In this document: positions 11,442 to 64,000 of the stretch, in pieces
Layout: every line of letters begins with the position of its first letter
Position numbering within the stretch: position 1 is the first letter of the stretch
DNA from: Pegea sp. RAD2-039
Taxonomy: Eukaryota; Chordata; Thaliacea; Salpida; Salpidae
Assembly: GCA_034620365.1 (NCBI GenBank)
Contig: JAQGEQ010000379.1
Span: 248,001 to 312,000, forward strand
Direction: 5' to 3'
Length of the DNA: 64,000 nt
Program-made: the position numbers and the translations under genes
The notes under the pieces: generated by a model
Databases searched by the model: none
What the model saw: the letters and a program-made list of their open reading frames with translations, nothing else
Told to the model about the DNA's origin: nothing

Positions 11442-11504
11442 TAACTGTAAATTTTAGCTTTCAGTCTACAAAAAAAGTTTGGTTTGTCATTATGATTTTT
11501 GCTA

Positions 11505-11686
11505 AACTAATATTTCATCAGTTGTCAAAATCACTTGATAACCCTACCAGATAAAATGAAATCCAACATTCAATGATTTAATCTGTTATTAAAATGAAAG
11601 TAATGTCTTGGGTTTGTGGGTAGTCATCAAAATTTCAGAACAGTTTCAGTGTCTTCAGAAATTGCTCTAAAAAATATGACTCTTTT
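11505..11686 (+). ncRNA. Array unit 1, type B: putative snRNA/SL-like RNA gene
   Basis: First unit after the LINE. Dyad 11505-11523 has a left arm AACTAAT (one mismatch to ATCAGTT). The leader-like block ends at 11619 and is followed by GTAGTC at 11620, 96 nt after the dyad. The leader end is GGTTTGTGG rather than the usual type-B TTTGTAG. Confidence 0.4.
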
Positions 11687-12537
11687 ATAACCTTAAGCAA
11701 AAAGGCTCTTTAATAAATACTAAGGTTTCAATTAAAATTGGGCAACAGTAAAAATTTACAGGTAAAAGCTGTTAAATCATGATAATTTTAATAAAAAAAG
11801 CAGACTTTCTTCTAATGGGCTAAAAATATATTCAATTTACCAGTTAGTAAAGTTTGAAAGTCAAATTATATTTTGAATTATCTAATTGAAAAAATTAATA
11901 AAATTTTTCCTCATCTTCTTGTTTTTCAAAAGCACAATTTTTCACATGATAAATTTAAAAGTTGTTCTGATACTTCATAAACTAAATTGTTTTATTTCAG
12001 TTAAAACTAGCAGAATGTTAAAAAAAAAACCATAAGATAAAATATTAATAAAATCTTGAAAAAAATGTTTATATTTTAAGTTCATTTTTAACTTCAAGAT
12101 GAAATGATTTACGTTATTAATAAATATTTGAAATTTTCAAATATACTTTTCAACTTCATTTGAAAATATATTTTTAAATTGACACTGATCAGTCGAATTT
12201 GTTTTTTAAATATTCTAACATTAATCCAAAGTAAAATTATCGAACAAATAAAATTTTAGATTTATAGTTAGAGAGTTAGATAATTACCTGTAAATAAATA
12301 AATTACCATTTTAAATCTAAGCAAAAACATTAAAGACTTTCTTTTGAAGACTTGGATTTCATATTTTCAAATCCTTATTTTTGTTTTGTTTAAAGTTTAT
12401 ACTTCAGTTGATAACTAAATTTTAAACTCTAATAATTTTTAGAAAAATTAAAAAAATAGTTTTTAGCTTTCAGTAAAAATATCGTTTATAATAAAGTTTA
12501 GGAAAGACGTTTGATTTGTCATTATGAACTTTTGTTA

Positions 12538-12717
12538 AACTGATGTTTCATCAGTTTTCAAATTTGTACTAGGGAGCTAAAGGATCTTTCCTCGTTTTTA
12601 ATCGAAGTTTAATCTAGTATTAAAATGAAGCTAAAGTCTTGCGTTTGTGGGTAATCAGAAAATTTTTAGACATTTTTCACTTTTTCGGAAATTGTTCTAA
12701 AATGTTATGACTTTTGT
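12538..12717 (+). ncRNA. Array unit 2, type A: putative snRNA/SL-like RNA gene
   Basis: Dyad with perfect 8-bp arms AAACTGAT/ATCAGTTT (12537-12557). GTAATC donor at 12651, 94 nt after the 19-bp core; Sm-like AATTTTTAG at 12661-12669; TATGACTTTT at 12706-12715. The sequence upstream is a B/C-like hybrid carrying ACTGATCAGT at 12184. Confidence 0.45.
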
Positions 12718-13396
12718 CAAATTTAAACAAAGAGATGTCTTTACAAAATCAAGATACTCATTTTCATTTCTATAAACAATTTATGCAATTTACCATTTAG
12801 CAATGTTTGAAAGTAATTTCACATTATTAATTCCAAGTTACTAATATATATAATTTTAGCCAAGTTTCTTGATTATAATAACAAATTGTTTTATTTCGAT
12901 AAAATTAAAAAAAATTTTTGTAATGTTTCCTAATCTGAAATGTTTTATTTTAGTTAAAATTAGTAAGCGGTTAACAAAATCAAAACCAAAAGATAAAATA
13001 TTATTAAAATGCTGAATAAATGTATTTTTATAAAAAAAAATTCGTTTTAAAATTCAAAAAGAAAAATATTTACGTTATCAACAAATATTTGAAAATTTCC
13101 AAAAATCTTTTTCAACTTCATTTAAAAAATTCTTTTTCAATTGTAACTGATCAGTCAAATTTGTTTTTTAAATATTTTAACATTAACTCCGATGTAAAAT
13201 TATAGAACAAAAAACATTTTAGATTAATAATTACACAGTTAGATAATTACTTGTATATAAATGTATTTCAATCTTAAATAAAAAGAAAAACTTTTAAATT
13301 TTAGTTTTGAAGACTTGAACTGTTACTTTAGAAAATGACGAAACAAAAAAATTTTATCAGCAAAACAAAATTTGATTCGTGACAAAGAAGTTTTTA

Positions 13397-13500
13397 AACT
13401 GATATTTCATCAATTGTCAAAATCCATTTTTAAATACTGAGGGATACAATATAAGAATACTTTGGTGTACTTTCAACTTAACATGCAACCGACTTAACTA
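13397..13500 (+). repeat. Array unit 3, type C: dyad without donor
   Basis: Dyad 13397-13415 (AACTGAT/ATCAATT). TGTACTTT and AACATGCAACC follow at the expected distance as in type D, but the TTTGTGG-GTAA end is absent. Probably a decayed unit. Confidence 0.5.
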
Positions 13501-13695
13501 ATAATAATTATTAATTATTCTAAATATTAATAAATAAGTTACTTGAATTATTACTTGATGATCATAAATAAAACTTATTTGTTATAATTATAATATTTCT
13601 GTTTAAATTAACAATATTCAAGAAGACCTCAATATTATTTTTTCTTTTTCAAGGATTTTTATTGTAAACTTTCTTACTAATCTTATGTTAAAATT

Positions 13696-13878
13696 AACTG
13701 ATATATAATCAGTTTCCAAAATATCGGGAAGAAAACTGAAGTATGATTAGCTTTCACAATATTCGCACTGTACTCGTTTAATAAAACGTAATTTTAATCT
13801 TGCGTTTGTGGGTAACTAATATTTTTGTCGAAGAAATTAACAGTCATTAAAAAGTTGTTTCAAAAAAAGAGGACTTTT
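13696..13878 (+). ncRNA. Array unit 4, type E: putative snRNA/SL-like RNA gene
   Basis: Dyad AACTGAT/ATCAGTT around ATATA, 13696-13714. TGTACTCG at 13770; leader end GCGTTTGTGG; GTAACT at 13812 (97 nt). ATTTTTG at 13821-13827 is a canonical-looking Sm core. Confidence 0.45.
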
Positions 13879-14382
13879 CAAAAATATCGAGAAAGCGACG
13901 TCATAGAACATTCCAGGTTGTCAAGTAATTGTAAATTAGGATAAATTTTTACAGAATAATAGCTGTTGAATCTTAATTATGATCAAATCACGTTATTTTG
14001 ATATAGAGAGTTTTTATAAACAAGTACTAGTTGGCAAAATTATAAGATAACTTTCATTGATTATTATTAATTCCAAGTTTTTTGATTCATAATATATCAG
14101 CCAAACTGTTTGTTTGTTGATTAACAAAATATTATATTGTGATAAGAAATCAAAGATAAAAATTTGTTGATTTATAAATTAACTTCTTACAATCAAATAG
14201 GAAAAGTTTCTATTTAAAGAAAAAATCATAAAACTAGATTTTCAATCGTTTGCTTAAGGATTAAGTTTGTTTTTAGTTTCATGAAATTTCATAAAAAATT
14301 AGGAAATGTTGGAAAAAATATAGAAATAGATTTTATCTTTCAGTCTACAAAAAAGTTTGGTTTGTCATTATGATGTTTGCTA

Positions 14383-14564
14383 GACTAATATTTCATCAGT
14401 TGTCAAAATTGCTTGATAACCCTACAAGATAATATGAAATCCAACATTCATTTGTTTATTCTGTTATTAAAATGAAAGTAAAGTCTTTCGTTTGTAGGTA
14501 CCAAAAACAATTCAGATTAGTTTCACTGTCTTTAGAAATTGAACTACAAAATATGATTCTTTTT
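14383..14564 (+). ncRNA. Array unit 5, type B: putative snRNA/SL-like RNA gene
   Basis: Dyad-derived element 14383-14401 (GACTAAT/ATCAGTT). Leader end TTTCGTTTGTAG; GTACCA at 14498 (96 nt). The T-run is poor (CAATTCAG), but TTTCACTGTC with GAAA follows. Confidence 0.38.
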
Positions 14565-14974
14565 AAACTTTAAGCTAAAAGCCTTCTTAATAAATGATAA
14601 GGTTTGAACTAAAATTAAGCAACAGTAAATGTTTGCAAGTAAATGCTGTTAAATCATGATAAGGTTACAAAATAGGTTACTTTATTATAATGGGTTAATA
14701 AATATATTCAATTTACTAGTATTTGCTAGTTTTATTAATTTGCTAGTTTTATTGTATTAAAATTAGAAAAGGCTCGTTCAAAAGAAAAGTCATAAAAAAA
14801 TTTTATCTCTTGATAAGGTTAAAGATTATTTCAAAGTTTGTGAAAAATTTTAAATTCTAATAAACTTCAGAAAATTTACAAAAATTGTTTTTAGCTTTTA
14901 GCAAAAATATCGTTTATAATCGTTTATAATAAAGTTTACGAAACAAGTTTGGTTCATCATTATGACTTTTGTTA

Positions 14975-15154
14975 AACTGATGTTTCATCAGTTTTCAAAT
15001 TTGTACTAGGGAGCTAAAGGAGCTTTACCCGTTTTTAGTCGAAGTTTAATCCAGTATTAAAATGAAACTAAAGTCTTGCGTTTGTGGGTAGTCGGAAAAA
15101 TTTTTAGAGTAGTTTCACTGCCATCGGAAATTATTATAAAAAGTTTTGACTTTA
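14975..15154 (+). ncRNA. Array unit 6, type A: putative snRNA/SL-like RNA gene
   Basis: Perfect dyad arms (14974-14994). Donor GTAGTC at 15088 (94 nt); ATTTTTAG at 15100-15107; ACTGCCATCGGAAA stem region follows. Confidence 0.45.
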
Positions 15155-15808
15155 ATGAAATTTAAACAAAGAAATGTTTTCAAAAAATTCAAGTCATTTA
15201 TTTAAGTTTTCTAAAAACTTTTATTAATTTACCAGTTAGCAAACTTTGAAATAAAAGCTGCTAAAATAATAAAAATATGATGCCAAGATTATTGTTTTTC
15301 AATAATAAAATATTTTAGTTTAATAAAATAAAAAAAATTTTGATACTTCTCAAATTAAACTGTTTTTCTTCAGTTAAATTTAGTAAGCGCTTAAAAAAAT
15401 TAAACCAAAAGATAGAATAATATTATAACGTTGAAGAAGATTTGTTTATAATAAAAGTTCATTTTTAATTTCGAAAAGAAAATTATTTAGGTTATTAATA
15501 AATATTTAAAATAATCAAAAATACTTTTAAACTTCATTTAAAAATATATTTTTCAACTGTAACTGATCAATCAAACATAGTTTTAAGTCTTTTAAGAGTA
15601 ACTCCTAAGTAAATTTATCAAACAAATAAAATTTTAGATGAATAATTAAAGAATTATATATTGACCTATATATAAATACATTACAATTTTAAATCAAAAC
15701 AATAACTTTTAATTTTGTTTTTGAAGACTTGGATTGTTATTTTAAAACATACGAGAGTAAATAACTTTATCAGCCAAACAATTTTGGTTTATGACAAAGA
15801 GTTTTCTA

Positions 15809-15991
15809 AACTGGTATTTCACCAGCTGTCAAAATATTTTGTAAATTTATAAAGAAGGATTATGATCCACATTCCTTTTAGTGTACTCTAAACTTAACAT
15901 GTAACCAATATCTAGCGTTTGTGGGTAATTTAAACATTTTTGAGAAGAAAATAGACGCTTTTAATCTTAGTTAACCAAAAATTAAATGTTA
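15809..15991 (+). ncRNA. Array unit 7, type D: putative snRNA/SL-like RNA gene
   Basis: Dyad AACTGGT/ACCAGCT (15809-15827), with a paired GAT-to-GGT and ATC-to-ACC change relative to other types. TTTTAGTGTACTC precedes the leader; GTAATT donor at 15925 (97 nt); ATTTTTGAG at 15936-15944. Confidence 0.45.
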
Positions 15992-16090
15992 AATTCTGTA
16001 TAAATTTTCAATTTTCTTGAATGATCTCTTTGTTAATTTATCCTTTTAAGTTTTAATTAAAGCAATGTTGATTAATACTATAATATGTAA

Positions 16091-16275
16091 GACTAATAAA
16101 TAATGTGTAGCACCAAATACTTTCAAGAAAAAGATAGCATATTGTTGTTTCTACTATTTTTTGCAGTGTACTAGTTTAATATCAAGTAAGTAACTCTTGA
16201 TTTTGTTGGTAAATTTGTTTAGACTAGTTTTACTATCAATGAAAAGTTGTCTCAATAAAAACGACTTTTAAATGA
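16091..16275 (+). ncRNA. Array unit 8, type H: putative snRNA/SL-like RNA gene
   Basis: The dyad position (16091-16109) is degenerate (GACTAATAAATAATGTGTA). TTGCAG-TGTACTAG precedes the leader; donor GTAAAT at 16209 (99 nt); U7-like T-run AATTTGTTTAG at 16212-16222. Confidence 0.35.
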
Positions 16276-16723
16276 GCAAACCAAAATGACAAAAACCTTT
16301 AAAGTAATGTTCTTTTACAATGACATATGGCAGGCTAAAAGCTGTAAGGTTATGACGACGCCAATAAATGCAGGTTAGTTTAATTTAATGATTAACTATA
16401 AACAATTAAAGTATCAGTTGGCAAACTAAAAATATAACTTTCATTGAACAATTTTAAATTCAAAATAATAAATTTAATAATATTATAGTCTTTGTAAGTA
16501 TATTCAGTTTATTTTATAGCTAAAATAATATTTATTAATTATTTCATATAAAACTCAACAAATAAAACACATGAATTATTACTCTACAAGCATAACTAAA
16601 ATTTATTTGTTATTATCAAAATATTTCTGTTTAAATTAACAATATTCATGAAGACCTCATTTTTTATTTATCTTTTTCAAGAATTTTTATTTTAAACATT
16701 CTTACTAATCTTATGTTAAAATT

Positions 16724-16906
16724 AACTGATATGTAATCAGTTTCCAAAATATCGGAAAGAAAACAGGGATGTGTCTAGAAATCATTATATTCGCACTGTA
16801 CTCGTTTAATATAAGGAATTTGTTATCTCGTATTTGTGGGCAACCAAATTTTTATCAGATAAAACTAACTGTCTTCAAAATCTGTTTCTAAAATGATAAC
16901 TTTTGA
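16724..16906 (+). ncRNA. Array unit 9, type G: unit with GC at the donor
   Basis: Intact dyad with spacer ATGTA (16724-16742) and TGTACTCG. The leader end TTTGTGG is followed by GCAACC at 16840 (97 nt), so a GT donor is missing. AATTTTTA at 16847-16854. Confidence 0.35.
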
Positions 16907-17426
16907 AAAATTCTAAACAAAACGACGTCATAAATTATTTAAGGTGGTCTAGTAATTGTAATTAAGGGAACATTTTACAGGATAAACGTTATTGAGTCTT
17001 AATTATAATCAAAGCAGATTAGTTTGATCTAAAGAGTTTTTATAAACAAGTACTAGTTGGAAAACTTAAATGATAACTTTCATTGATTATTGTTAATTTA
17101 AAATTTCTTCATTCATAAAATATCAGCCAAATTTATTGTTTGTTGATTAACGTCTTAGTTCGATAAAATTAAAATATAAGTTTTTGTGTCTTTCTATATT
17201 AACCTATTTTATATAATTTATAAAAATCACTTTTTAAGAAAAATTATAAAAAAATATTTTTTATCTTTTTTTTATTTTTAAAGTTTTATTATAAGTTGGA
17301 TAGGAAAATATTAAATGCTAATAAAATTTACAAAAATTATAAAAATGAGTATTTAGCTTTCAGTAACAATATCATTTATATTAAACTTTACGAAACAAGT
17401 TTGATTTGTCATTATGAACTTCATTA

Positions 17427-17604
17427 AACTGATATTTCATCAGTTACAAAAATATACACTGGTGTTAAATAAGATTTCCCTGTTCACATTGAAGATTAAT
17501 CTATTATTAAAATGAAACTAAAGTCTTGTGTTTGTGGGTAATCAGAAAAATTTTAGAGTAGTTTCACTTTATTCGGAAATTTTTCTATGAAGTTATGACT
17601 TTTA
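17427..17604 (+). ncRNA. Array unit 10, type I: putative snRNA/SL-like RNA gene
   Basis: Perfect dyad AACTGAT/ATCAGTT around ATTTC (17427-17445). Leader end TTGTGTTTGTGG; GTAATC at 17538 (92 nt). Confidence 0.45.
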
Positions 17605-18295
17605 TCAAATTTAAACAAAGAGATGTTTTACAAAAAATTTCAAGCTATTTGTTTTTATTTTACTTAAAATGTTGAGTATTTTACCAGATAGCAAAGTTTG
17701 AAAGTCAACTTTCATTCCACATTATTAATTCCAAGCTACTAATATATATATTTTTAGCCAAGTTTCTTGTTTATAATAACAAATTGTTTTATTTCAAAAA
17801 AAAATTAAAAAATCTTTTAACTTTTCATGATTTAAAACGTTTTATTTTAGCTAAAATTAGTAAGCGCTCAACAAAAATCAAAACCAAAAGATAAAATATT
17901 ATTAAAATTTGAATAAATGTATTTTTATAAGAAAAATTCTTTTTTAAATTCAAATAAAAATATTTACGTTATTAACAAATATTTGAACATTTCCATAAAT
18001 TTTCAGAATCTTTTTCAACTTCATTTGAAAATATCTTTTTCAATTGTAACTGATCAGTCAAATTTGTTTTTTAAATAATTCAACATTGACTCCGACGTAA
18101 AATTATCGAACAAAAACATTTTAGATTGATAATTAGACAATTAGATAACTACTTGTATATAAATAAATTACAATCTTAAACAAAAAGAAAAACTTTTAGA
18201 TTTTAGTTTTGAAGACTTGAACTGTTACTGAAAATAAAGAAACTAAAAAATTTCATCAGCAAAACAAAATTTGATTCGTGACAAAGAAGTTTTTA

Positions 18296-18400
18296 AACTG
18301 ATATTTCATCAATTGTCAAAATCCGTTTTTAAATGCTGAGGGATACAATATAAGAGTACTTTGGTGTACTTTCAACTTAACATGCAACCGACTTAACTGA
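18296..18400 (+). repeat. Array unit 11, type C: dyad without donor
   Basis: Dyad 18296-18314 with right arm ATCAATT; GGTGTACTTT and AACATGCAACCGAC follow, then no leader end. ACTGATCAGT lies 247 nt upstream of the dyad (18049). Confidence 0.5.
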
Positions 18401-18594
18401 TAATTATAATTATTTATTCTAAATATTAACAAGTAATTTACTTGAATTATTACTATTTGATCATGACTAAAACTTATTAGTTATAATCAAAATATTTCTG
18501 TTTAAATTAACATTATTCAAGAAGACCACAATATTAATTTATCTTTTTCAAGGATTTTTATTGTAAACTTTCCTACTAATCTTATGTTAAAATT

Positions 18595-18778
18595 AACTGA
18601 TATATAATCAGTTGTCCAAAATATCGGGAAGAAAACTGAAGTGTGTTTAGTTTTCATTATTCTCGCACTGTACTCGCTTAATAAAAAGTAATTATTATCT
18701 TGTGTTTATGGGTAACTAATTTTTTTGTCAAAGAAATTAACAGTCATTAAAAAGTTGTTTCAAAAAATGATGACTTTT
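18595..18778 (+). ncRNA. Array unit 12, type E: putative snRNA/SL-like RNA gene
   Basis: Perfect dyad (18595-18613). Leader end TGTGTTTATGG (G-to-A change); GTAACT at 18712 (98 nt); seven-T Sm-like run ending TTTTTTTG. Confidence 0.42.
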
Positions 18779-19282
18779 CAAAAATATCAAGAAAGCGACG
18801 TCATAGAACATTCCAGGTTGTCAAGTAATTGTAAATTAGGATAAATTTTTACAGGATAATAGCTGTTGAGTCTTAATTATGATCAAATCACGTTATTTTG
18901 ATATAGAGAGTTTTTATAAACAAGTACTAGTTGGCAAAATTATGAGATAACTTTTTTTGATTATTGTTAATTCAAAATTTCTGCATTCATAAAATATCAA
19001 CCAAATTTGTTGTTTGTTTACTAACTAAATATTCTATTGTGATAAGAAATAAAAGTTAAAAATTGTTGATTTAAAAATTAACTTCTTACAATCAAATAAG
19101 AAAAGTTTCTATTTAAAGAAAAAATCATAAAATTAGATTTTCGATCGTTTGTTTAAGGATTAAGTTTGTTTTTAATTTCATGAAATTTCATAAAAAATTA
19201 GGAAATGTTGGAAAAATTATAGAAATAGATTTTAGTTTTCAGTCTACAAAAAAAGTTTGGTTTGTCATTATGATGTTTGCCA

Positions 19283-19464
19283 AACTAATATTTCATCAGT
19301 TGTCAAAATTGCTTGATAACCCCACCAGATAAAATGAAATCCAACATTCGTTTGTTTAATCTGTTATTAAAATGAAAGTAAAGTCTTTCGTTTGTAGGTA
19401 CCAAAAACAATTCAGATTAGTTTCACTGTCTTTAGAAATTGAACTACAAAATATGATTCTTTTT
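19283..19464 (+). ncRNA. Array unit 13, type B: putative snRNA/SL-like RNA gene
   Basis: Dyad 19283-19301 with left arm AACTAAT; leader TTTCGTTTGTAG; GTACCA at 19398 (96 nt). Confidence 0.38.
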
Positions 19465-20214
19465 AAACTTTAAGCAAAAAGACTCATTAATAAAACTAAG
19501 GTTTGAAGTAAAATTAATCAACAGTAAAAGTGTACAAGTAAAAGCTGTTAAATCATTGTAAAGCTAAAAATAGGTTACTTTGATCTAATGGGTTAATAAA
19601 TATATTCAATTTAATAGTTAGCAAAGTTTGAAAATCAACTTTTATTTCACAATTTTAATTCCAAGTTACTAAATTAGAAAAATGTTTGACAAGTTTCTTG
19701 TTTTTCAAAAGCACAATTTTTCACATGATGAAATTAAAATTTGTTCTGATACTTCATAAACTAAACTGTTTTATTTCAGTTAAAATTAGCAGAATGTTAA
19801 AAAAAATCCAAACCATAAGATAAAATATTATTAGAATATTGAAAAAATGTTTATATTTTAAGTTCATTTTTAACTTGAAAAATGAAATTATTTACGTTAT
19901 TAATAAATATATGAAATTTTCAAAAATACTTTTCAAATTCATTTAAAAGTATCTTTTTAAATTCTAACTGATCAGTCAAATTTATTTTTTAATAATTTTT
20001 ATGTTGACTCCGAAGTAAACCTATAAAGCAAAAAAATGTTAAAATAAAAATAAGAGAATTAGTTATTTACCTGTATACAAATACATTACCATCCTAAATC
20101 AAAACAAAAAACTTTTAATTTTGTTTTTGAAGACTTGGATTGTTAGTTTAAAACATACGAAAGTAAATAACTTTATCAGCCAAACAAGTTTGATTTATGA
20201 CAAGGAGTTTTTTA

Positions 20215-20398
20215 AACTGGTTTTTCACCAGCTGTCAAAATATTTTGGATAATTAGAATAAAAAATTATTTGAGCCACATTCCTTTATTGTACTCTACAC
20301 TTAACATGTAACCAGTATCTAGCATTTGTGGGTAATTTAAACATGTTTGAGAAACATTTGACTTTTAATCTTATTTAACAAAACACTAAAGTTTAAAT
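20215..20398 (+). ncRNA. Array unit 14, type D: putative snRNA/SL-like RNA gene
   Basis: Dyad AACTGGT/ACCAGCT around TTTTC (20215-20233). Leader end GCATTTGTGG; GTAATT at 20332 (98 nt); T-run altered to ATGTTTGAG at 20343. Confidence 0.42.
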
Positions 20399-20490
20399 TC
20401 TGTAAAAACTATTCATTTTTCTAAATGACATCTATCTTATCTTTTTATGAAATTTATTATAATTGTCCTTATTAGTGTTGTGATTTGTAA

Positions 20491-20671
20491 AACTGATATA
20501 TAATCAGTTGCCAAACAATTTCCAGAATCAAATAAAGTATGCTGTTTCTACCAAGCTCCAGTCTACTCTTTTAATAACAAGTAACTAACGTATGGAATTT
20601 GTTGGTAAATTTGTTTAGACTAGTTTCACTGTCATTGAAAAGTTGTCTCAAAAGATACAACTTTTATATGA
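20491..20671 (+). ncRNA. Array unit 15, type F: putative snRNA/SL-like RNA gene
   Basis: Perfect dyad (20491-20509), only 276 nt after the dyad of unit 14. Leader end GGAATTTGTTG; GTAAAT at 20605 (95 nt), U7-like AATTTGTTTAG, then TTTCA/TGAAA stem around CTGTCAT. Confidence 0.45.
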
Positions 20672-21435
20672 GCAAAACCAACTGACAAAAACTTTAAGTA
20701 ATTTTTTTTACAATGAGATACAACAGGCTAAAGGATATAGCAGGCTAAACGCTGTTAGGTTATGACGACGCCAATAAATGCAAGTTAGTCTCATTTAATG
20801 ATTAATTATAAACATTTAAAGTATCGTTTGGCAAACTGTCATTGATAATTTGTTTCACAATATGATGACTTTTAAAAAACTCTAAAGATAACGATTTAAT
20901 AAAGCTTGAGTTGTCCAGTTTGCCAAGTAATTGTAAATTAGGGAACAATTTAGAAGGTGAAAGCGATTGAATCTTATTTATATCAAATAACGTTGTTTTG
21001 ATCTAAAGAGTTTTTGTTAACAATTAATTTACCAGTTAGCAAACTTAAACGATAACTTTCATTAGAGGTTATTCATTCCAAATTACTACATTTATAACAT
21101 CTTAGTCAAGTTGGTTGTTTGTTGATCAACAAGATATATTAGTTTGAAAAAAGTAGAAGTTAGATTTTTGTTACTTTTAGTTGAACTTATTGTATTAAAA
21201 TTAGAAAAAGTTCACTTTAAAGAAAAATCATAAAATTACATTTTTCATCTCTTGTTTAAGATTAAAGATTATATCTAAGTTGACGGAAAAATTTCAAATT
21301 CTAATAAATTTTAGAAAACTTATAAAAATGAGTTAATATGAGCTTTCATATTGATGAGCTTATAATAATGAGCTTTCAATAATAATGTGATTTATAAAAA
21401 AGTTTACGAAACAAGTTTGATTTGTCATTTTGTTA

Positions 21436-21614: not shown

Positions 21615-21720
21615 TGAAATTTAAACAAAGAGATGTCTTCAAAAAATTCAAGTCATTTATTTAAGTTTTCTAAAAACTTTTACTAATTTACCAGTTAGCA
21701 ATTAATGCTATGATATGTAA

Positions 21721-21903
21721 GACTAATAAGTAACGAGTAGCGCCAAATAGTTTCGAGAAACAGATACCATTATGTTGTTTCTACTACTTTGCAGTTTTTA
21801 AGTTTAATATCAAGTAACTAACTCTTGAGTTTGTAGGTAAATTTGTTTAAACTAGTTTTACTATCAATGAAAAGTTGTCTCAAAAAATACGACTTTTAAA
21901 TGA
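21721..21903 (+). ncRNA. Array unit 17, type H: putative snRNA/SL-like RNA gene
   Basis: Degenerate dyad at 21721. Leader end GAGTTTGTAG (TAG instead of TTG); GTAAAT at 21837 (97 nt). It follows unit 16 directly, without the usual type-D unit between. Confidence 0.35.
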
Positions 21904-43188: not shown

Positions 43189-43857
43189 GCAAAACCACAT
43201 GAAAAAAACTTTCAAAGTAACTGGCTTTTAAAATGAGATACAACAGGCGAAAGGCTGCTAGGTTTGACGACGCCAATAAATGCAGGTTATTTTCATTTAA
43301 TGATTAACTATAAACAATAAAAGTATCGTTTGATAATTTGTTTCACAAAACGATGACATTTAAAAAACTCTAAAGATAACGATTTAATAAAGCTTGAGTT
43401 GTCCAGTTTGCCAAGTAATTGTAAATTATGGAATAATTTAGAAGGTGAAAGCGATTGAGTCTTATCTATATCAAATAACGTTGTTTTGATCTAAAGAGTT
43501 TTTGTTAACAATTAATTTACCAGTTAGCAAACTTAAACGATATCTTTCACTAGAGGTTATTCATTCCAAATTATTACATTTATAACATCTTATTCAAGTT
43601 GTTTGTTTGTTGACCCACAAAATATTTTAGTTTGAAAAAAGTAGAAGTTAGATTTTTGTTGCTTTTAGTTGAACTTTTTGTATTAAAATTAGAAAAGGTT
43701 CTTTTTAAAAGAAAAATCATAAAATTACATTTTTCATCTCATGTTTGAGATTAAAGATTATATCTCAGTTGATGGAAAAAACTTTAAATTTTAATTTTAC
43801 AACTAGTATTTAGCTTTCATTAAAAATTTGATTTAAAATCAAAATTCAAACAAAATT

Positions 43858-44430
43858 CAAGGTTCAGGCAAAATTTACGAGATTGGTTTGCAGGAAACTT
43901 AATATCAAATACGAGAGTTATAAGCATCGTCTCAGCTTCTTCAATCTAGATACTTTGGAAATCCGAAGAATTAAATACGACCTTATTCTGATTTTTAAAA
44001 TTATTCACAACCTAATTGATCTTCAGTTTGATGACTGTTTCTCCATTAGTCCCTCCCTCAAGTTATATCGACTTAGAAGACATAAACTACATCTTAATAA
44101 GCCCACTCCACCAGCTACGTTAACCAGATTAAGTTTTTTCTCATACCGCACAATCAGTACATGGAACAATCTGCCATCAGAGATTGTCATGTCAAAATCA
44201 CTTGTGCTGTTCAAGAAAAAGCTGAATTGTTATAATATCGCCAACATTGCCATTTTTAAACTGTGAATTTTTCTCTTTTACAATACTATGATTCTGTGCA
44301 ATTCTTCATTGTCATATGCTTTTTCGTTTACACGTCAAATAGATCTAATTTGTGAGAATGTGTGTTAGCGAGAGGTGCTCTCTTTAGGCACCGTCCTTCA
44401 CATTTATTGAAATAAACAAATAAATAAATA
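43858..44430 (+). mobile_element. 5'-truncated LINE, copy 2, inside the array
   Basis: Homologous to about 10,875-11,430 of copy 1: it begins in the C-terminal part of ORF2 and ends with the shared 3' UTR block GAGAATGTGTGTTAGCGAGA, then a tail of AAATA repeats (44,411-44,430). Array sequence resumes at TTCAAGAAGACCTC. No clear target-site duplication is visible. Units on the two sides are F and G, which normally have A, D and H between them, so the insertion came with, or was followed by, loss of about three units. Confidence 0.9.
43883..44266 (+). pseudogene. C-terminal fragment of LINE ORF2
   Basis: An open frame of 127 codons with RLSFFNLDTLEIRRIKYDL, FKIIHNLIDL, and ISTWNNLPSEIV, features of the region after the polymerase thumb in CR1/Jockey ORF2 proteins. 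There is no catalytic domain and no evidence of a genuine start, so it is a truncated relic that happens to remain open. It is better preserved than the same part of copy 1. Confidence 0.85.
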
Positions 44431-54025: not shown

Positions 54026-54209
54026 AACTGATATATAATCAGTTGTCCAAAATATCGGGAAGAAAACTGAAGTGTGTGTAGCCTTCATTATTCTCGCACT
54101 GTACTCGTTTAATAAAAAGTAATTATTATCTTGTGTTTATGGGTAACTAATTTTTTTGTCAGAGAAATTAACAGTCATTAAAAAGTTGTTTCAAAAAAGG
54201 ATGACTTTT
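54026..54209 (+). ncRNA. Array unit 67, type E: putative snRNA/SL-like RNA gene
   Basis: Perfect dyad; leader end TGTGTTTATGG as in unit 12; GTAACT at 54143 (98 nt). Confidence 0.42.
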
Positions 54210-54711: not shown

Positions 54712-54893
54712 AACTAATATTTCATCAGTTGTCAAAATTGCTTGATAACCCCACCAGATAAAATGAAATCTAACATTCGTTTGTTTAATCTGTTATTAAA
54801 ATTAAAGTAAAGTCTTGCGTTTGCAGGTAACAAAAACAATTCAGATTAGTTTCATTGTCTTTAGAAATTGAACTAGAAAATATGATTCTTTTT
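54712..54893 (+). ncRNA. Array unit 68, type B: putative snRNA/SL-like RNA gene
   Basis: Left arm AACTAAT. Leader end GCGTTTGCAG; GTAACA at 54827 (96 nt). The unit tail is cut at about 54,912 and fused to unit 69. Confidence 0.37.
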
Positions 54894-54942
54894 TAAACTT
54901 TAAGCAAAAAGCTAACATTCTTACTAATTCTATGTTAAAATT

Positions 54943-55126
54943 AACCGATGTATAATCAGTTGTCCAAAATATCGGAAAAGAAGTAGATCTTTACTTAATA
55001 TTCGGCAAAACTGTAGTGTAATCGTTGAATAAAAAGTAATTAATGTTTTGTGTTTGTGGCTAATCAATTATTTTATCAGAAAAAGTTAATTGTCATAGAA
55101 ACTTTGTTTGAGAAAAATGTTGACTT
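54943..55126 (+). ncRNA. Array unit 69, type J: divergent singleton related to E/G
   Basis: Dyad AACCGAT/ATCAGTT around GTATA (one mismatch). TGTAGTGTAATCG replaces TGTACTCG; TTTGTGG is followed by CTAATC at 55060 (98 nt), so the GT is lost. The downstream 500 nt (ACGACGTCAC, GGGTAAATATTTACAGG) is the most diverged of the E/G family. Confidence 0.33.
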
Positions 55127-55686
55127 TAACAAAAATAACAAAACGACGTCACAAGAAGTTTTAGATTTTTAAGTAATTGTTAATTAGGGTAAATATTTAC
55201 AGGATAAGAGCTGTTAGATCATGATTATTGTCACTTCAGTTGATATTGATCTGAAGAGTTTTCATAAACAAGTAATTTAGCAGTTAGCAAACATCAACTA
55301 TAACTTTCATTGGATGTTATTTATTCCAAATTACTACATTTAAAAAATCTTAGACTAGTTTGTGTTTGTTGACGAACTAGACAATTTATTTTGATAAAAG
55401 TAAGAGGTAGATTTTTGTTGATGTTTAGTTTTTTTAGTTAATAAACTTTTTAGTTACTAAACAACTTATTTTAATAAAATTAGAAAAGGATCTTTTTAAA
55501 TAAAAATTATAAAATGAAGTTGTACATCTTTTTTTTGTGATTAAAATAAATATTTAAGTTGAAGGGAAAATTTTAAATTATAATCAGTTTTAGAAAAATT
55601 ACAAAAATAGTTTTTAGATTTAACAAAAATATCGTTTATAATAAAGTTTACGAAACAAGTTTGATTTGTCATTATGACTTTTGTTA

Positions 55687-55865
55687 AACTGATGTTTCAT
55701 CAGTTTCCAAATTTAAACTAGGGAAGTAAAGGAGCTTTATCCTTTATAATCGAAGTTTAATCTAGTATTAAAATGAAACTAAAGTCTTGCGTTTGTGGGT
55801 AATCAGAAAATTTTTAGAGTAGTTTCACAGTTATTGGAAATTATTCTAAAAAGTTTTGACTTTAA
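55687..55865 (+). ncRNA. Array unit 70, type A: putative snRNA/SL-like RNA gene
   Basis: Perfect 8-bp arms; GTAATC at 55799 (93 nt); AATTTTTAG at 55809-55817. Confidence 0.45.
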
Positions 55866-56519
55866 TGAAATTTAAACACAGAGATGTTTTCAAAAAATTC
55901 AAGTCATTTATTTAAATTTTCTAAAAACTTTTATTAATTTATCAGTTAGCAAAGTTTGAAATTAAAATTTCTAAAATAATGAAATAATAATGCCAAGATT
56001 ATTGTTTTTCAATAACAAAATATTTTAGTTTATTAAAATTAAAAATTATTTTGATACTTCTCAAATTAAACTGTTTTTCTTTAGTTAAAATTAGTAAGCG
56101 CTTAAAAAAATTAAACCAAAAGATAAAATAATATTATAACGTTGAAAAAGATTTGTTTATAATAAAAGTTCATTTTTAATTTCGAAAAAGAAAATTATTT
56201 ACGTTATTAATAAATATTTAAATTTTTAGAAAATACTTTTAAACTTCATTTAAAAATATCTTTTTCAACTGTAACTGATCAGTCAAACTTAGTTTTAAGT
56301 CTTTTAAGATTAACTCCGAAGTAAATTTATCAAACAAATAAAATTTTAGATGAATAATTAGAGAATTATATATTGACCTATATATAAATACATTAAATTT
56401 TAAATCAAAACAAAAACTTTTAATTTTGTTTTTGAACATTTGGATTGTTACTTTAAAACATACGAGAGTAAATAACTTTATCAGCCAAACAAGTTTGATT
56501 TATGACAAAGAGTTTTCTA

Positions 56520-56703
56520 AACTGGTATTTCACCAGCTGTCAAAATATTTTTTTGAAAGAGAAGATAAGAATTATGATCCACATTCCTTTTAGTGTAATC
56601 TAAACTTAACATGTAACCAGTATCTAGCGTTTGTGGGTAATTTAAACATTTTTGAGAAGAAAATAGACGATTTGTATCTTAATTAACCAAAAATTAAATA
56701 TTA
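56520..56703 (+). ncRNA. Array unit 71, type D: putative snRNA/SL-like RNA gene
   Basis: Dyad AACTGGT/ACCAGCT; GTAATT at 56637 (98 nt); ATTTTTGAG at 56648-56656. Confidence 0.45.
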
Positions 56704-56802
56704 AATTCTGTATTAATTTTCAATTTTCTTGAATGATCTTTTTGTTAATTTATCCTTTTAGATTTTGATTAAAGTGATGTTGATTAATGCTATGATATGT
56801 AA

Positions 56803-56988
56803 GACTAATAAACAACGGATAACGCCAAATCGTTTCGAGGAAAAGATAGCATTATGTTGTTTCTACTATTTTTTGCAGTGTACTAGTTTAATATCAAGTA
56901 ACTAACGTCTTGAGTTTGTTGGTAAATTTGTTTAGACTAGTTTCACTATCATTGAAAAGTTGTCTCAAAAAATATGACTTTTAAATGA
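56803..56988 (+). ncRNA. Array unit 72, type H: putative snRNA/SL-like RNA gene
   Basis: Degenerate dyad; GTAAAT at 56922 (100 nt); leader contains CGTCTTGAG. Confidence 0.35.
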
Positions 56989-57436
56989 GCAAAACTACTT
57001 AACAAAAACTTTAAGTAAGTAATTTTTTTTACAATGAGATATAGCAGTCTAAAAGCTATTAGCTTTGACAACGCCAATAAATACAGGTTAGTTTAATTTA
57101 ATGATTAACTATAAACAATTAATGTATCAGTTAGCAAACTTAAGAGATAATTTTCATTGAACAATTTAAATTCAAATTACTACATTTAGAAAATATTATA
57201 GTATTTGTAAGTTTTTGCAGTTTATTTTATAGGTAAAATAATATTTATTAATTATATCATCTAAAAATCAACAAATAAAACACATGAATTATTACTCTAC
57301 AAACATAACTAAAATTTATTAGTTATAATTAAAATATTTCTGTTTAAATTAACGATATTCAAGATGACCTCAATGTTAATTTATCTTTTTCAAGAATTAT
57401 TATTTTAAACATTCTTACTAATCTTATGTTAAAATT

Positions 57437-57620
57437 AACTGATATATAATCAGTTGTCCAAAATATCGGAATGAAAACAGTGTAGTGACCAGAATTCATT
57501 ATATTCGCACTGTACTCGTTTTATATAAGGAATTTGTTATCTCGTATTTGTGGAAAACCAAATTTCTATCAGACAAAAATAACTGTCTTCAAAATCTGTT
57601 TCTAAAATGATAACTTTTGA
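57437..57620 (+). ncRNA. Array unit 73, type G: donor lost
   Basis: Perfect dyad; TTTGTGG followed by AAAACC at 57554 (98 nt). Confidence 0.3.
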
Positions 57621-58123
57621 AAAACTCTAAACAAAATGACATCATAAATTATTTAAAGTAATTTAGTAATTGTAAATAAGGGAACATTATACAGGATAAA
57701 CGCTGTTGAGTCTTAATTATGATCAAAGTAGATTAGATTGATCTAAAGAGTTTTTATAAACAAGTACTAGTTGGAAAACGTAAATGATAACTTTCATTGA
57801 TTATTGTTAATTCAAAATTTCTGCATTCATAAAATATCAGCCAAATTTTTTGTTTGTTCACTAACTAAATATTTTATTATGATAAGAAATCAAAGTAAAA
57901 ATTTGTTGATTTAAAAATTAACTTATTACAATTAAATAGAAAAAGTTTCTATTTAAAGAAAAAATCATAAAATTAGATTTTCGATCGTTTGTTTAAGGGA
58001 TAAGTTTGTTTTTAGTTTCATGAAATTTCATAAAAACTTTCGTAAATGTTGGAAAAATTATAGAAATAGATTTTAGCTTTCAGTCTGCAAAAAAAGTTTG
58101 CTTTGTCATTATGATTTTTGCTA

Positions 58124-58305
58124 GACTAATATTTCATCAGTTGTCAAAATTGCTCGATAACCCTACAAGATAAAATGAAATTCAACATTCATTTGTTTAT
58201 TCTGTTATTAAAATGAAAGTAAAGTCTTACGTTTTTAGGTACCAAAAATAATTCGGATTAGTTTTATTGTCTTTAGAAATTGAACTACAAAATATGATTC
58301 TGTTT
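58124..58305 (+). ncRNA. Array unit 74, type B: putative snRNA/SL-like RNA gene
   Basis: Left arm GACTAAT; GTACCA at 58239 (96 nt). Confidence 0.36.
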
Positions 58306-59059
58306 AAAACTTTAAGCAAAAAGCCTCCTTAATAAATGATAAGGTTTGAACTAAAATTAAGCAACAGTAAATGTTTACAAGTAAATGATGTTAAATCATG
58401 ATAAAGTTAAAAAATAGGTTACTTTAATCTAATGGTTTAATAAATATATTCAATTTACTAGTTAGCAAAGTTTGAAAATCAACTTTTATTTCACAATTTT
58501 AATTCCAAGTTACTAAATTAGAAAAATGTTTGACAAGTTTTTTGTTTTTCAAAAGCACATTTTTTCACATGATAAAATTAAAAGTTGTTCTGATACTTCA
58601 TAAACTAAATTGTTTTATTTCAGTTAAAATTAGCAGAATGTTAAAAAAAAAAACAAAACCATGAGATAAAATATTATTAGAATCTTGAAAGAAAGTTTAT
58701 ATTTTAAGTTCATTTTTAACTTCAAAAATGAAATGATTTACGTTAGTAATAAATATTTGAAATTTTCAAAAATAATTTTCAAACTCATTTAAAAATATCT
58801 ATTTAAATTCTAACTGATCAGTCAAATTATTTTTTTAATAATTGTTATGTTTACTCCGAAGTAAACCTATAAAGCAAAAAAATGTTAAAATAAAAATAAG
58901 AGAATTAGTTATTTACCTGTATACAAATACATTACCATCCTAAATCAAAACAAAAACTTTTAATTTTGTTTGTGAAGACTTGGATTGTCTCTTTAAAACA
59001 TACGAGAGTAAATAACTTTATCAGTCAAACAAGTTTGATTTATGACAAGGAGTTTTTTA

Positions 59060-59242
59060 AACTGGTATTTCACCAGCTGTCAAAATATTTTCTAAATTTA
59101 TAAAGAAGGATTATGATCCACATTCCTTTTAGTGTACTCTACACTTAACATGTAACCAGTATCTAGCGTTTGTGGGTAATTTAAACAAGTTTGAGAAACA
59201 TTTGACTTTTAATCTTATTTAACAAAACACTAAAGTTTAAAT
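59060..59242 (+). ncRNA. Array unit 75, type D: putative snRNA/SL-like RNA gene
   Basis: Dyad AACTGGT/ACCAGCT; GTAATT at 59176 (97 nt); T-run altered to AAGTTTGAG. Confidence 0.4.
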
Positions 59243-59334
59243 TCTGTAAAAACTATCCATTTTTCTGAATGACATTTATCTTATCTTTTTATGAATTTCA
59301 TTATAATTGTCCTTATTAGTGTTGTGATTTGTAA

Positions 59335-59515
59335 AACTGATATATAATCAGTTGCCAAACAATTTCCAGAATCAAATAAAGTATGCTGTTTCTACCAAGC
59401 TCCAGTCTACTCTTTTAATAACAAGTAACTAACGTCTGGAATTTGTTGGTAAATTTGTTTAGACTAGTTTCAATGTCATTGAAAAGTTGTCTCAAAAGAT
59501 ACAACTTTTATATGA
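59335..59515 (+). ncRNA. Array unit 76, type F: putative snRNA/SL-like RNA gene
   Basis: Perfect dyad 275 nt after that of unit 75; GTAAAT at 59449 (95 nt). Confidence 0.43.
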
Positions 59516-60279
59516 GCAAAACCACATGACAAAAACTTTAAGTAATTTTTTTTACAATGAGATACAACAGGCTAAAGGATATAGCAGGCTAAACGCTGTT
59601 AGGTTATGACGACGCCAATAAATGCAAGTTAGTCTCATTTAATGATTAATTATAAACATTTAAAGTATCGTTTGGCAAACTGTCATTGATAATTTGTTTC
59701 ACAATATGATGACTTTTAAAAAACTCTAAAGATAACGATTTAATAAAGCTTGAGTTGTCCAGTTTGCCAAGTAATTGTAAATTAGGGAATAATTTAGAAG
59801 GTGAAAGCGATTGAGTCTTATTTATATCAAATAACGTTGTTTTGATCTAAAGAGTTTTTGTTAACAATTAATTTACCAGTTAGCAAACTTAAACGATAAC
59901 TTTCATTAGAGGTTATTCATTCCAAATTACTACATTTATAACATCTTAGTCAAGTTGTTTGTTTGTTGACCAACAAGATATTTTAGTTTGAAAAAAGTAG
60001 AAGTTAGATTTTTGTTACTTTTAGTTGAACTTTTTGTATTAAAATTAGAAAAAGTTCTCTTTAAAGAAAAATCATAAAATTACATTTTTCATCTCTTGTT
60101 TAAGATTAAAGATTATATCTAAGTTGACGGAAAAATTTCAAATTCTAATAAATTTTATTAAACTTATAAAAATGAGTTTATATGAGCTTTCATATTGATG
60201 AGCTTATAATAATGAGCTTTCAATAATAATGTGATTTATAATAAAGTTTACGAAACAAGTTTGATTTGTCATTTTGTTA

Positions 60280-60459
60280 AACTGATGTTTCATCAGTTTT
60301 CAAATTTGCATCAGGAAGACAACGGAGCTTTATCCGTTTATAATCGAAGTTTAATCTAATATTAAAATGAAACTAAAGTCTTGTGTTTGTGGGTAATCCG
60401 AAAATTTTTAGAGTAGTTTCACTGTCACCGGAAGTTATTATAAAAAGTTTTGACTTCAA
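60280..60459 (+). ncRNA. Array unit 77, type A: putative snRNA/SL-like RNA gene
   Basis: Perfect 8-bp arms; GTAATC at 60393 (94 nt). The tail is cut near 60,830 and joined to the tail of a type-H unit, losing D and the H promoter. Confidence 0.44.
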
Positions 60460-61222
60460 TGAAATTTAAAGAAAGAGATGTCTTCAAAAAATTCAAGTCA
60501 TTTATTTAAGTTTTCTAACAACTTCAAATAATTTACCAGTTAGCAAAGTTTGAAATTAAAATTTCTAAAATAATAAAATAATAATGCCAAGATTATTGCT
60601 TTTCAATAACAAAATATTTTAGTTTAATAAAATTGAAAAATGCTTTGACACTTCTCAAATTAAACTGTTTTTCTTCAGTTAAATTTAGTAAGTTCTTAAA
60701 AAAATTAAACCAAAAGATAAAATAATATTATAGCGTTGAAGAAGATTTGTTTATAATAAAAGTTGATTTTTAATTTCGAAAAGAAAACTATTTAGGTTAT
60801 TAATAAATATTTAAAATATTCAAAAATACTATAATAAAGCTATTAGGTTATGACGACGCCAATAAATGCAGGTTAGTTTCATTTAATGATTAACTATAAA
60901 CAATTAAAGTATCAGTTAGCAAACTTAAGAGATAACTTTCATTGAACAATTTTAAATTCAAATTACTACATTTAGAAAATATTGTAGTATTTGTAAGTAT
61001 TTGCAGTTTAGTTTATAGGTAAAATAATATTTATTAATTATTTCATCTAAACATTAACAAATAAAACACATAAATTATTACTCTACAAGCATAACTAAAA
61101 CTTATTAGTTATAATTAAAATATTTCTGTTTAAGTTAACAATATTCAAGAAAACCTCAATATTACTTTATCTTTTTCAAGAATTATCATTGTAAACATTC
61201 TTACAAATCTTATGCCAAAATT

Positions 61223-61404
61223 AACTGATATATAATCAGTTGTCCAAAATATCGGAATGAAAACAGTGAAGTGACCAGATCATTATATTCGCACTGTACT
61301 CGTTTTATATAAGGAATTTGTTATCTCGTATTTGTGGGCAACCAAATTTTTATCAGACAAAAATAACTGTCTTCAAAATCTGTTTCTAAAATGATAACTT
61401 TTGA
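61223..61404 (+). ncRNA. Array unit 78, type G: unit with GC at the donor
   Basis: Perfect dyad; GCAACC at 61338. A two-base deletion (AGATCATT) shortens the gap to 96 nt from the usual 98. Confidence 0.32.
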
Positions 61405-61923
61405 AAAATTCTAAACAAAACGACATCATAAATTATTTAAGAAAGTCTAGTAATTGTAAATAAGGGAACATTTTACAGGATAAACGCTGTTGAGTCTTAA
61501 TTATAATCAAAGTAGATTAGATTGATCTAAAGACATTTTATAAACAAGTACTAGTTGGAAAACTTAAATGATAACTTTCATTGATTATTGTTAATTCAAA
61601 ATTTCTACATTCATAAAATATCAGCCAAATTTTTTGTTTGTTGATTAAGATCTTATTTCGATAAAAGTACAGATTAACTTTTTGTGTCTTTCTATACTAA
61701 CCTAGTTTATATAATTTAGATAAATCACTTTTTAAGGAAAATAATACAAAAATATTTCTCATCTTTTTTTTATATTTAAAGTTTAATTATAAGTTGATAG
61801 GAAAATTTTAAATGCTAATAAAATTTACAAAAATTATAAAAATGAGTTTTTAGCTTTCAGTAAAAATATCATTTATATCAAACTTTACGAAACAAGTTTG
61901 ATTTGTCATTATGAATTTTATTA

Positions 61924-62101
61924 AACTGATATTTCATCAGTTACAAAAATATACACTGGTGTTAAATAAGATTTCCCTGTTCACATTGAAGATTAATCTA
62001 TTATTAAAATGAAACTAAAGTCTTGTGTTTGTGGGTAATCAGAAAGATTTTAGAGTTGTTTCAATTTATTCGGAAATTTTTCTATGAAGTTATGACTTTT
62101 A
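61924..62101 (+). ncRNA. Array unit 79, type I: putative snRNA/SL-like RNA gene
   Basis: Perfect dyad; GTAATC at 62035 (92 nt); gap sequence matches unit 10 rather than units 27, 41 and 58. Confidence 0.44.
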
Positions 62102-62785
62102 TCAAATTTAAACAAAGAGATGTTTTCAAAAAATTTCAAGTTATTTGTTTTTATTTTACTTAAAATGTTGAGTAATTTACCAGATAGCAAAGTTTGAAAG
62201 TCAACTTTCATTCCACATTATTAATTCCAAGCTACTAATATATATAATTTTAGCCAAGTTTCTTGATTATAATAACAAATTGTTTTATTTCGAAAAAAAT
62301 TAAAAATCTTTTTACTTTTCCGGGTTTAAAAAGTTTTATTTTATCAAAAATTAGTAAGCACTCAACAAAAATCAAAACTAAAAATAAGATATTATTAAAA
62401 TGTTGAAAAAAGGTATTTTTATACTAAAAATTCTTTTTTAACGTTAAAAATGAAAAATACTTACGTTATTAACAAATATTTGAAAATTTCCAAAAATCTT
62501 TTTCAACTTTATTTAAAAATATATTTTTCAATTGTAACTGATCAGTCAAATTTGTTTTTTTAATATTTTAACATTGACTCCGACGTAAAATTATCGAACA
62601 AAAAACATTTTAGATTGATAATTAGACAATTAGATAATTACCGGTATATAAATATATTACAATCTTAAATAAAAAGAAAACTTTTAAATTTTAGTTTTGA
62701 AGACTTGAACTGTTACTTTAGAAAATGACGAAACAAAAAAATTTTATCAGCAAAAAAGATTTGATTGGTGACACAGAAGTTTTTA

Positions 62786-62890
62786 AACTGATATTTTATC
62801 AATTGTCAAAATCCATTTTTAAATGCTGAGGGATACAATATAAGAGTACTTTGGTGTACTTTCAACTTAACATGCAACCGACTTAACTAA
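62786..62890 (+). repeat. Array unit 80, type C: dyad without donor
   Basis: AACTGAT/ATCAATT around ATTTT; no leader end; ACTGATCAGT 249 nt upstream. Confidence 0.5.
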
Positions 62891-63084
62891 TAATAATAAT
62901 TATTTATTTTAATAATTAACAAATAATTTACTTGAATATTGAATTGATGATCATAACTAAAACTTATTTGTTATTATCAAAATATTTCTGTTTAAATTAA
63001 AAATATTCACGAAGACTTCAATATTAATTTATCGTTTTCAAGGATTTTTATTGTAAACATTCTTACTAATCTTATGTTAAAATT

Positions 63085-63268
63085 AACTGATATATAATCA
63101 GTTGTTCAAAATATCGGGAAGAAAACTGAAGTATGTTTAGCTTTCATTGTTTTCGCACTGTACTCGTTTAATAAAAAGTAATTATTATCTTATATTTGTG
63201 GGTAACTAAATTTTTTAGTCAGAGAAATTAACAGTCATTAAAAAGTTGTTTCAAAAAATAATGAATTT
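63085..63268 (+). ncRNA. Array unit 81, type E: putative snRNA/SL-like RNA gene
   Basis: Perfect dyad; leader end ATATTTGTGG; GTAACT at 63202 (98 nt). The tail is fused to a type-B promoter near 63,379. Confidence 0.43.
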
Positions 63269-63444
63269 TCAAAAATATCGAGAAAGCGACGTCATAGAAC
63301 ATTCCAGGTTGTCAAGTAATTGTAAATTAGGATAAATTTTCAAAGGATAATAACTGTTGAGTCTTAATTATGATCAAATTATAGAAATAGATTTTAGCTT
63401 TCAGTCTACAAAAAAAGTTTGGTTTGTCATTATGATGTTTGCTA

Positions 63445-63626
63445 AACTAATATTTCATCAGTTGTCAAAATCACTTGATAACCCTACCAGATAAAATGAA
63501 ATCCAATATTCATTTGTTTAATCTGTTATTAAAATGAAAGTAAGGTATTGCGTTTGTAGGTAACAAAAACAATTCAGATTAGTTTCATTGTCTTTAGAAA
63601 TTGCTCTACAAAATATGATTCTTTTT
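63445..63626 (+). ncRNA. Array unit 82, type B: putative snRNA/SL-like RNA gene
   Basis: Left arm AACTAAT; leader end TTGCGTTTGTAG; GTAACA at 63560 (96 nt). Last complete unit in the window. Confidence 0.38.
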
Positions 63627-64000
63627 AAAACTTTAAGCAAAAAGCTTCCTAAAAGATGTTAAGGTTTCAACTAAAATTAAGCAACAGTAAATGTTTACAA
63701 GTAAAAGATATTAAATCTTGATAAAGTAAAAAAATAGGTTACTTTAATCTAATGGGTTAATAAATATATTCAGTTTACTAGTTAGTAAAGTTTGAAAATC
63801 AACTTTTATTTCACAATTTTAATTCCAAGTTACTAAATTAGAAAAATGTTTGACAAGTTTCCTATTTTTCAAAAGCACAATTTTTCACATGATAAAATTA
63901 AAAGTTGTTCTGATACTTCATAAACTAAATTTTTTTATTTCAGTTAAAATTAGCAGAATGTTAAAAAAAAATGAAAACCATAAGATCAAATATTATTAGA

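Follow-up and report, generated by a model that had tools for sequence, protein, structure and literature searches.

The window analysed here, a 64,000-nt stretch of the genome of the salp Pegea sp. RAD2-039 (positions 248,001 to 312,000 of contig JAQGEQ010000379.1, called C22 below; genome of 105.7 Mb in 387 contigs), carries part of a large array of repeated units that resemble small nuclear RNA (snRNA) genes. The array, array 1, spans C22:259.6-374.7 kb, is about 115 kb long, consists of 164 units and extends beyond the window (C22:238-412 kb was examined). Units were defined by a block within 4 mismatches of the proximal sequence element (PSE), the snRNA promoter element of this genome, and were grouped by common words. 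So defined, 76 units of six types lie in the window: 17 of type A, 17 of B, 14 of F, 13 of C, 10 of D (two D-like units included) and 5 of E. The original prediction for this DNA had counted 82 units of ten types; its one-sided repeat array is confirmed, its numbers are not. Both of its main landmarks recur in one orientation in the window: the dyad (CTGATGTTTCATCAG with at most 2 mismatches, 33 plus vs 0 minus) and the TTTGTGGGTAA block (GCGTTTGTGGGTAA with at most 2 mismatches, 51 plus vs 0 minus). The one-sidedness of a third landmark, the ATGACTTTT block, is weak (27 vs 4 exact matches, 82 vs 44 with one mismatch). The order of the types along the array repeats as blocks, and an exact pattern of PSE core plus hairpin has 76 matches genome-wide, 74 of them on C22 and all on the minus strand, with none for the control.

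The promoter was recognized by comparison with known snRNA genes elsewhere in the genome, where Rfam models find U1 19 times (18 above cut-off) and U6 15 times (13 above cut-off). When the upstream DNA of 12 U1 and 8 U6 loci was compared, a CCACAAACACTAAA-like element was found 55-56 nt before all 12 U1 genes and 62-63 nt before 5/8 U6 genes. It also lies upstream of three U3 genes, at a distance of 57 nt, and of an RNase MRP candidate that scores below gathering. The PSE of this genome thus defined reads CCACAAAC..., and its reverse complement is GTTTGTGGGTAA, the leader-like end of the original prediction. The supposed leader with its GTAA/GTAC donor on the plus strand is the PSE read backwards, which rules out a plus-strand spliced leader. 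U1 genes at five loci (L020, L022, L023, L024 and L026) also carry TGACGTCA immediately upstream of the PSE.

A PSE matrix was built from 13 distinct 20-mers of the U1, U6, U3 and RNase MRP candidate loci, none from the arrays and with three of the eight U6 loci left out. At 10 bits or more it finds 42 sites on the minus strand of the window vs 2 on the plus strand (3.6 per strand in shuffled sequence), and 37 of the 42 coincide with array 1 units. Any transcription of the units should therefore proceed from the minus strand. Type A elements score 15.1-24.6 bits (median 22.9), like the training genes; the medians of the other types are 7.7-9.7 bits. The earlier proposal, in which snRNA-type genes combine a PSE with an Sm-like site and a stem-loop, is supported as to kind but not as to strand and the assignment of the parts: what was called the promoter dyad is the 3' hairpin of a minus-strand RNA, and the plus-strand Sm-like T-run sits upstream of the promoter. 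Genome-wide, the PSE with at most 1 mismatch occurs 679 times vs 112 for a reversed control, a surplus of 567 for which the known arrays account only in part; 79 of the 100 matches listed are on contig C102. Eleven single exact PSE sites were examined, among which are the 3 U3 genes, the 1 RNase MRP candidate and 7 sites without an Rfam match.

Read on the minus strand, a unit begins with the PSE. The predicted start lies about 56 nt on, and an RNA from there would comprise a variable 5' tag, the Sm-like site and the hairpin. Examples of each type are as follows.

11503..64000, minus strand: the portion of array 1 in the window, 76 units of types A-F
11503..11563, minus strand: predicted type F RNA, 61 nt, in the array's first unit; hairpin at 11506-11522, leader-like 16 nt followed by GTAGGG
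12536..12594, minus strand: predicted type A RNA, 59 nt, its start set by U1/U3 spacing
12539..12555, minus strand: type A 3' hairpin (the dyad of the original prediction), with Sm-like AAATTTGAA just 5' of it
12631..12650, minus strand: PSE of the same type A unit, scored by the U1/U6/U3/MRP promoter matrix
13693..13755, minus strand: predicted type B RNA, 63 nt, with Sm-like ATATTTTGG and hairpin at 13697-13713
13792..13811, minus strand: PSE of the type B unit, by the promoter matrix
15809..15868, minus strand: predicted type C RNA, 60 nt, with Sm-like ATATTTTGA and hairpin at 15810-15826
15905..15924, minus strand: PSE of the type C unit, by the promoter matrix
20490..20548, minus strand: predicted type E RNA, 59 nt; promoter element (a CCAACAAAT variant) at 20585-20604
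21719..21780, minus strand: type D unit, which retains the promoter element and the T-run and has lost the hairpin

Type D units are probably decayed; together with three D-like units they were set aside in the hairpin-position, Sm-motif, GT-position and constraint analyses below. Over the whole of array 1, 139/140 units of types A, B, C, E and F have a hairpin with at most 3 mismatches to the stem pattern, 93-100 nt after the start of the PSE (the interval searched was 84-109 nt). For these types the predicted RNA length is 57-64 nt (51/66 window units measured; 22/76 window units were left out of this measurement). DNA of types B and C hints at a 5' hairpin, which is not claimed and partly overlaps the predicted start.

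A second array with the same layout lies elsewhere in the genome. A search pattern that joins the PSE to an Sm-like run and one arm of the hairpin has 119 exact matches in the genome (62 plus, 57 minus) and none for the control; 82 are on C102 and 18 on C247 among the 100 of the 119 matches listed. Viral contigs searched gave 0 matches, and the prokaryote contigs searched gave one.

C102 12-250 kb (to the contig end) and C247 157-224 kb, both strands: array 2, larger than array 1

Array 2 was examined in 23 units from C102 pieces L058, L059 and L071-L073. A unit has a TATA-like box, a tag, a AATTTTTGGAG-like Sm site and the hairpin GTTGAACAAGTTTCAAC or a near variant; the layout is that of array 1, the letters of the hairpin differ. 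Mean pairwise identity among 22 units is 0.95 in the hairpin, 0.82 in the promoter, 0.77 in the next 40 nt and 0.65 in the tag (0.59 for shuffled tags). By our cutting the tags of 22 units are 21-36 nt long, and an unpicked set of 22 units holds 21 distinct tags, which single linkage with free end gaps places in 5 groups. No number of tag families is claimed from a larger sample, since its figure of 27/41 is biased, those 41 of the 100 matches listed having been picked against look-alikes.

Sm-like motifs precede the hairpin in 34/36 A, 26/26 F, 37/38 B, 29/30 C and 15/19 array 2 units, counting units with a located hairpin. The hairpin has a common shape in both arrays, a 6-bp stem and a 5-nt loop. 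Of the cells in 23 distinct hairpin sequences, drawn from both arrays, 94.2% are paired vs 82.6% in shuffled sets, and 17 cells show a double change vs 5.3 in shuffled sets; these double changes are mainly differences between arrays and between types, and they therefore stand for few events. The covariation score is 0.482 and drops to at most 0.161 when the partner is slid by 1-3 columns. Among the eight RNAs folded, types A, B and C are clearly more stable than shuffles (z of -2.84, -3.28 and -1.97). By motif and covariation together, types A, B, C and F as well as array 2 have an Sm-like site followed by a 3' stem-loop; this arrangement is weak in E and absent from D.

Constraint was measured as per-column diversity in aligned units, a value that badly aligning tags inflate. 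In type C the PSE (0.046), Sm stretch (0.044) and hairpin (0.029) are below the far flanks (0.107-0.192), and the tag (0.268) is above them; only 2/251 flank windows reach the diversity of the tag. In array 2 (19 units, differing tag types pooled) the values are 0.086 for the PSE, 0.213 for the Sm stretch, 0.060 for the hairpin, 0.535 for the tag and 0.287-0.306 for the far flanks, and 0/273 flank windows reach the tag. Sm stretch and hairpin together lie below the far flanks (p <0.001) in all groups other than type E; taken by itself, the Sm stretch has low diversity in B, C and F. The frame is therefore kept while tags differ between types, with a tag excess over spacer in two groups only; hypervariability of the tag as a general rule was dropped, as it holds in type C and pooled array 2 alone.

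The units could be decaying or selfish copies of a formerly functional snRNA gene, multiplied as satellite DNA and without a present role. The repeating type order, the loss of the type D hairpin, the many low-scoring promoter elements and the tags of A, B, E and F, which are no more diverse than flanks, would all fit such a history. However, the PSE and the Sm site with its hairpin are less variable than the flanks in most types, and the hairpin shows covariation across the two arrays, which are separate; we regard decay as unlikely.

The preferred reading is that the units are minus-strand snRNA-type genes whose RNAs of about 60 nt would share a promoter, a probable Sm site and a hairpin, and differ in their 5' tags; we put its probability at roughly 0.6. 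At the level of DNA the kind of promoter, the strand, the layout, the covariation of the hairpin and, in most types, the conservation of the frame are established. Transcription by RNA polymerase II and an Sm ring are likely by analogy with known snRNAs, and the tag as a guide that pairs with targets is a hypothesis only. Under this reading the U1/U3-like PSE would recruit the SNAP complex and RNA polymerase II, and transcription would begin about 56-57 nt downstream of it and yield an RNA of about 57-64 nt with 5' tag, Sm-like site and hairpin. An Sm ring would assemble on the Sm-like site, and the unbound tag could then base-pair with a second RNA, in the manner of the U7 5' end. The array would grow by duplication of multi-gene blocks, and the tags would drift or diversify as promoter, Sm site and hairpin are retained.

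A number of results weigh against this reading. i) The promoter element scores below 10 bits in 39/76 window units, and the 37/76 at or above this value are unevenly distributed (A 17/17, B 8/17, F 7/14, C 3/13, D 2/10), with all 5 type E units below it; the predicted start positions rest on the U1/U3 spacing. ii) The Sm-like motif is present in only 3/9 type E units and type D is without a hairpin. The constraint on Sm site and hairpin is not significant in type E (p 0.07), and diversity of the Sm stretch by itself is not reduced in type A (0.188) or array 2 (0.213). iii) The hairpins used for covariation were chosen by patterns that lean towards the stem, and two of the five covariation measures, pairs with double changes and further pair types, are not above shuffles. 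iv) Folding is unremarkable in E (z of -0.27), F (-0.21), D (0.39) and array 2 (-0.70 and -0.29), and the type F hairpin is missing from its minimum-energy fold. v) The excess of tag diversity over the flanks fails in A and B, where tags are at flank level, and in E and F, where they are below it. vi) Complementarity of the tags to 173 kb of non-array sequence is not above control (mean longest match 12.03, largest 16, vs 11.72, largest 15, for reversed tags). vii) Type F fits a spliced leader.

The spliced-leader idea fell with the plus strand, and on the minus strand it has a different outcome for each type. Spliced-leader RNAs resemble the units in their snRNA-type promoter, Sm site, hairpin and repeated genes. 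They differ in length, the array RNAs being about 60 nt vs the about 100 nt cited in the original prediction, and no common donor is seen in types C and E or in array 2. In these three groups the GT donor upstream of the Sm site that marks a spliced leader is generally missing (no GT ahead of the final 10 nt of the tag in 29/30 C, 6/9 E and 10/19 array 2 units), and GTRAG occurs in the tags of 0/139 array 1 and 1/19 array 2 units; by this test none of the three groups is a spliced-leader candidate. In type A, 25/37 units have a GT at +25 or +26, abutting the Sm site, and in type B 34/38 have one at +19, mostly as GTTTTC; both are poor donors by the donor consensus, and spliced leaders of types A and B are doubtful. 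That every unit is a spliced-leader RNA would agree with PSE-driven, Sm-like, arrayed genes, with the type F donor and with the single GT position of most B units, but the donor counts just given and the identity of the plus-strand block with the reversed PSE make it highly improbable.

Type F is the group for which the idea may hold, with other letters than first proposed. All 26/26 units have a GT at +16 from the predicted start, as GTAGGG or GTGGGG, which makes it a candidate donor, preceded by the leader-like block GATTTCATTTTATCT. A related family is dispersed in the genome. It came to light in a U7-directed pattern search, in which 15 of the 33 matches (10 for the control) belong to it, and its 16-mer GAAATCGTTTTATCTC has 23 exact genome copies and 0 for the control.

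L075-L083, on C64, C98, C104, C267, C274, C275, C286 and C287: dispersed family, with PSE, leader-like block with GTAATT, Sm-like AATTTGG and hairpin

In these nine loci ATCGTTTTATCTCGTAATTT is conserved; the sequence downstream of it differs in two and has an insert in a third, and then come the Sm-like run and the hairpin. The PSE is missing in 1/9. The first 22 letters of the family are identical to the type F consensus at 15/22 positions with zero shift, the position of the GT included, a value reached in 0/20,000 shuffles and, with shifts allowed, in 0.15% of 2,000. The other types give 3 (A), 8 (B), 6 (C) and 10 (E) identical letters. Type F and the dispersed family are therefore spliced-leader candidates, in which a 16-nt leader would be followed by a GT donor, Sm site and hairpin on the minus strand. 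Against this, the type F 3' hairpin is weak, and its tag is conserved, but the promoter is too. We consider such a role for type F possible but somewhat less probable than not; it is compatible with the snRNA-type reading of the other types, and type F may show the origin of the family.

In size and layout the units match U7 snRNA, which has a free 5' tail, an Sm site and a 3' hairpin. It is about 60 nt long and carries an Lsm10/Lsm11 ring (PMC7026596). The array could thus represent an amplified and diversified U7 for the end processing of histone pre-mRNAs, and several contigs of the genome do carry histone genes that end in 3' stem-loops (L046-L057), with downstream sequences of two classes. 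The longest complementarity between tags and histone downstream regions is 11 nt, as in 30 sets of shuffled tags (9-14 nt), and an 11-nt match of type D to a histone region falls in its T-run and within the shuffle range. Rfam U7 has no genome match above cut-off. The five commonest 14-nt Sm stretches of each group include none that reads as the U7-type site AAUUUGUCUAG, and the Sm sites of array 2 (AATTTTTGGAG) look canonical. Unlike U7, the arrays have many units and many tags. A U7 role is rated very unlikely.

Other Sm-class RNAs also bear comparison. SmY RNAs of nematodes are also small and of the Sm class, but an Rfam scan of the window at gathering scores found no known family, SmY included, and a permissive scan of 6.5 kb gave one chance-level match and no SmY. 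HSUR RNAs, which are encoded by the virus Herpesvirus saimiri, pair with other RNAs (PMC6763288), as is proposed for the array RNAs. They too are of the Sm class, but they are few and longer.

Many snRNA-type promoters that drive differing products are most closely paralleled by the PIWI-interacting RNA (piRNA) loci of nematodes, large clusters of separate SNAPc-related promoters, each with a different downstream sequence (PMC6436959). The 5' tag of a unit might likewise be cut out as a piRNA-like small RNA, the unit being an snRNA-promoter-driven precursor. The tag length of 21-36 nt in array 2 and the Piwi-domain genes at three places in the genome would suit this, as would a T at the predicted start in 13/23 array 2 units, a mild excess in T-rich DNA. 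The array units, however, add an Sm-like site and a covarying hairpin after the variable part, neither of which is expected in such precursors, and the nematode loci are not known to have either. Release of the tags as piRNA-like RNAs appears quite unlikely.

As a rule, Sm-class RNAs comprise few species, which are conserved. The 164 units of array 1 and at least 119 exact matches of array 2, with a common frame and tags that are not common, would mean that the snRNA machinery is put to an unusual use. It is tempting to extend the snRNA-type reading to a repertoire of hundreds of Sm-ring RNAs, in which a constant frame would present diversified 5' guides from at least two large arrays. Such a guide system on an snRNA chassis, perhaps derived from spliced-leader genes through type F, could serve gene regulation or genome defence; this is speculation, and on balance improbable. 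Nothing comparable was found among the entries listed for Sm-class arrays, PSE-driven arrays and spliced leaders in open-licence PubMed Central, a weak negative. The predicted RNAs form an exact list that one small-RNA library could confirm or refute, and the correction of the strand keeps experiments from pursuing the wrong leaders.

Other features lie within and beside array 1. Related open frames with a WSNGEAYVPE-like motif are found at window 1-414 (minus), 2911-3609 (minus) and 6725-7336 (plus), and also at L019; two of them were scanned and had no Pfam match. At the left edge of the array, window 8529-11400 holds the remains of a retroposon whose open frame matches reverse transcriptase (Pfam RVT_1, E 7e-20), and a retroposon-like piece lies inside the array.

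43832..44263, plus strand: retroposon-like piece within array 1, recognized by eye from the translation of a stop-to-stop frame

The spacers of array 1 contain the repeat classes T1 (39) and T5 (18), which bear a weak resemblance to the PSE block, with 4-5 mismatches, and may be decayed units.

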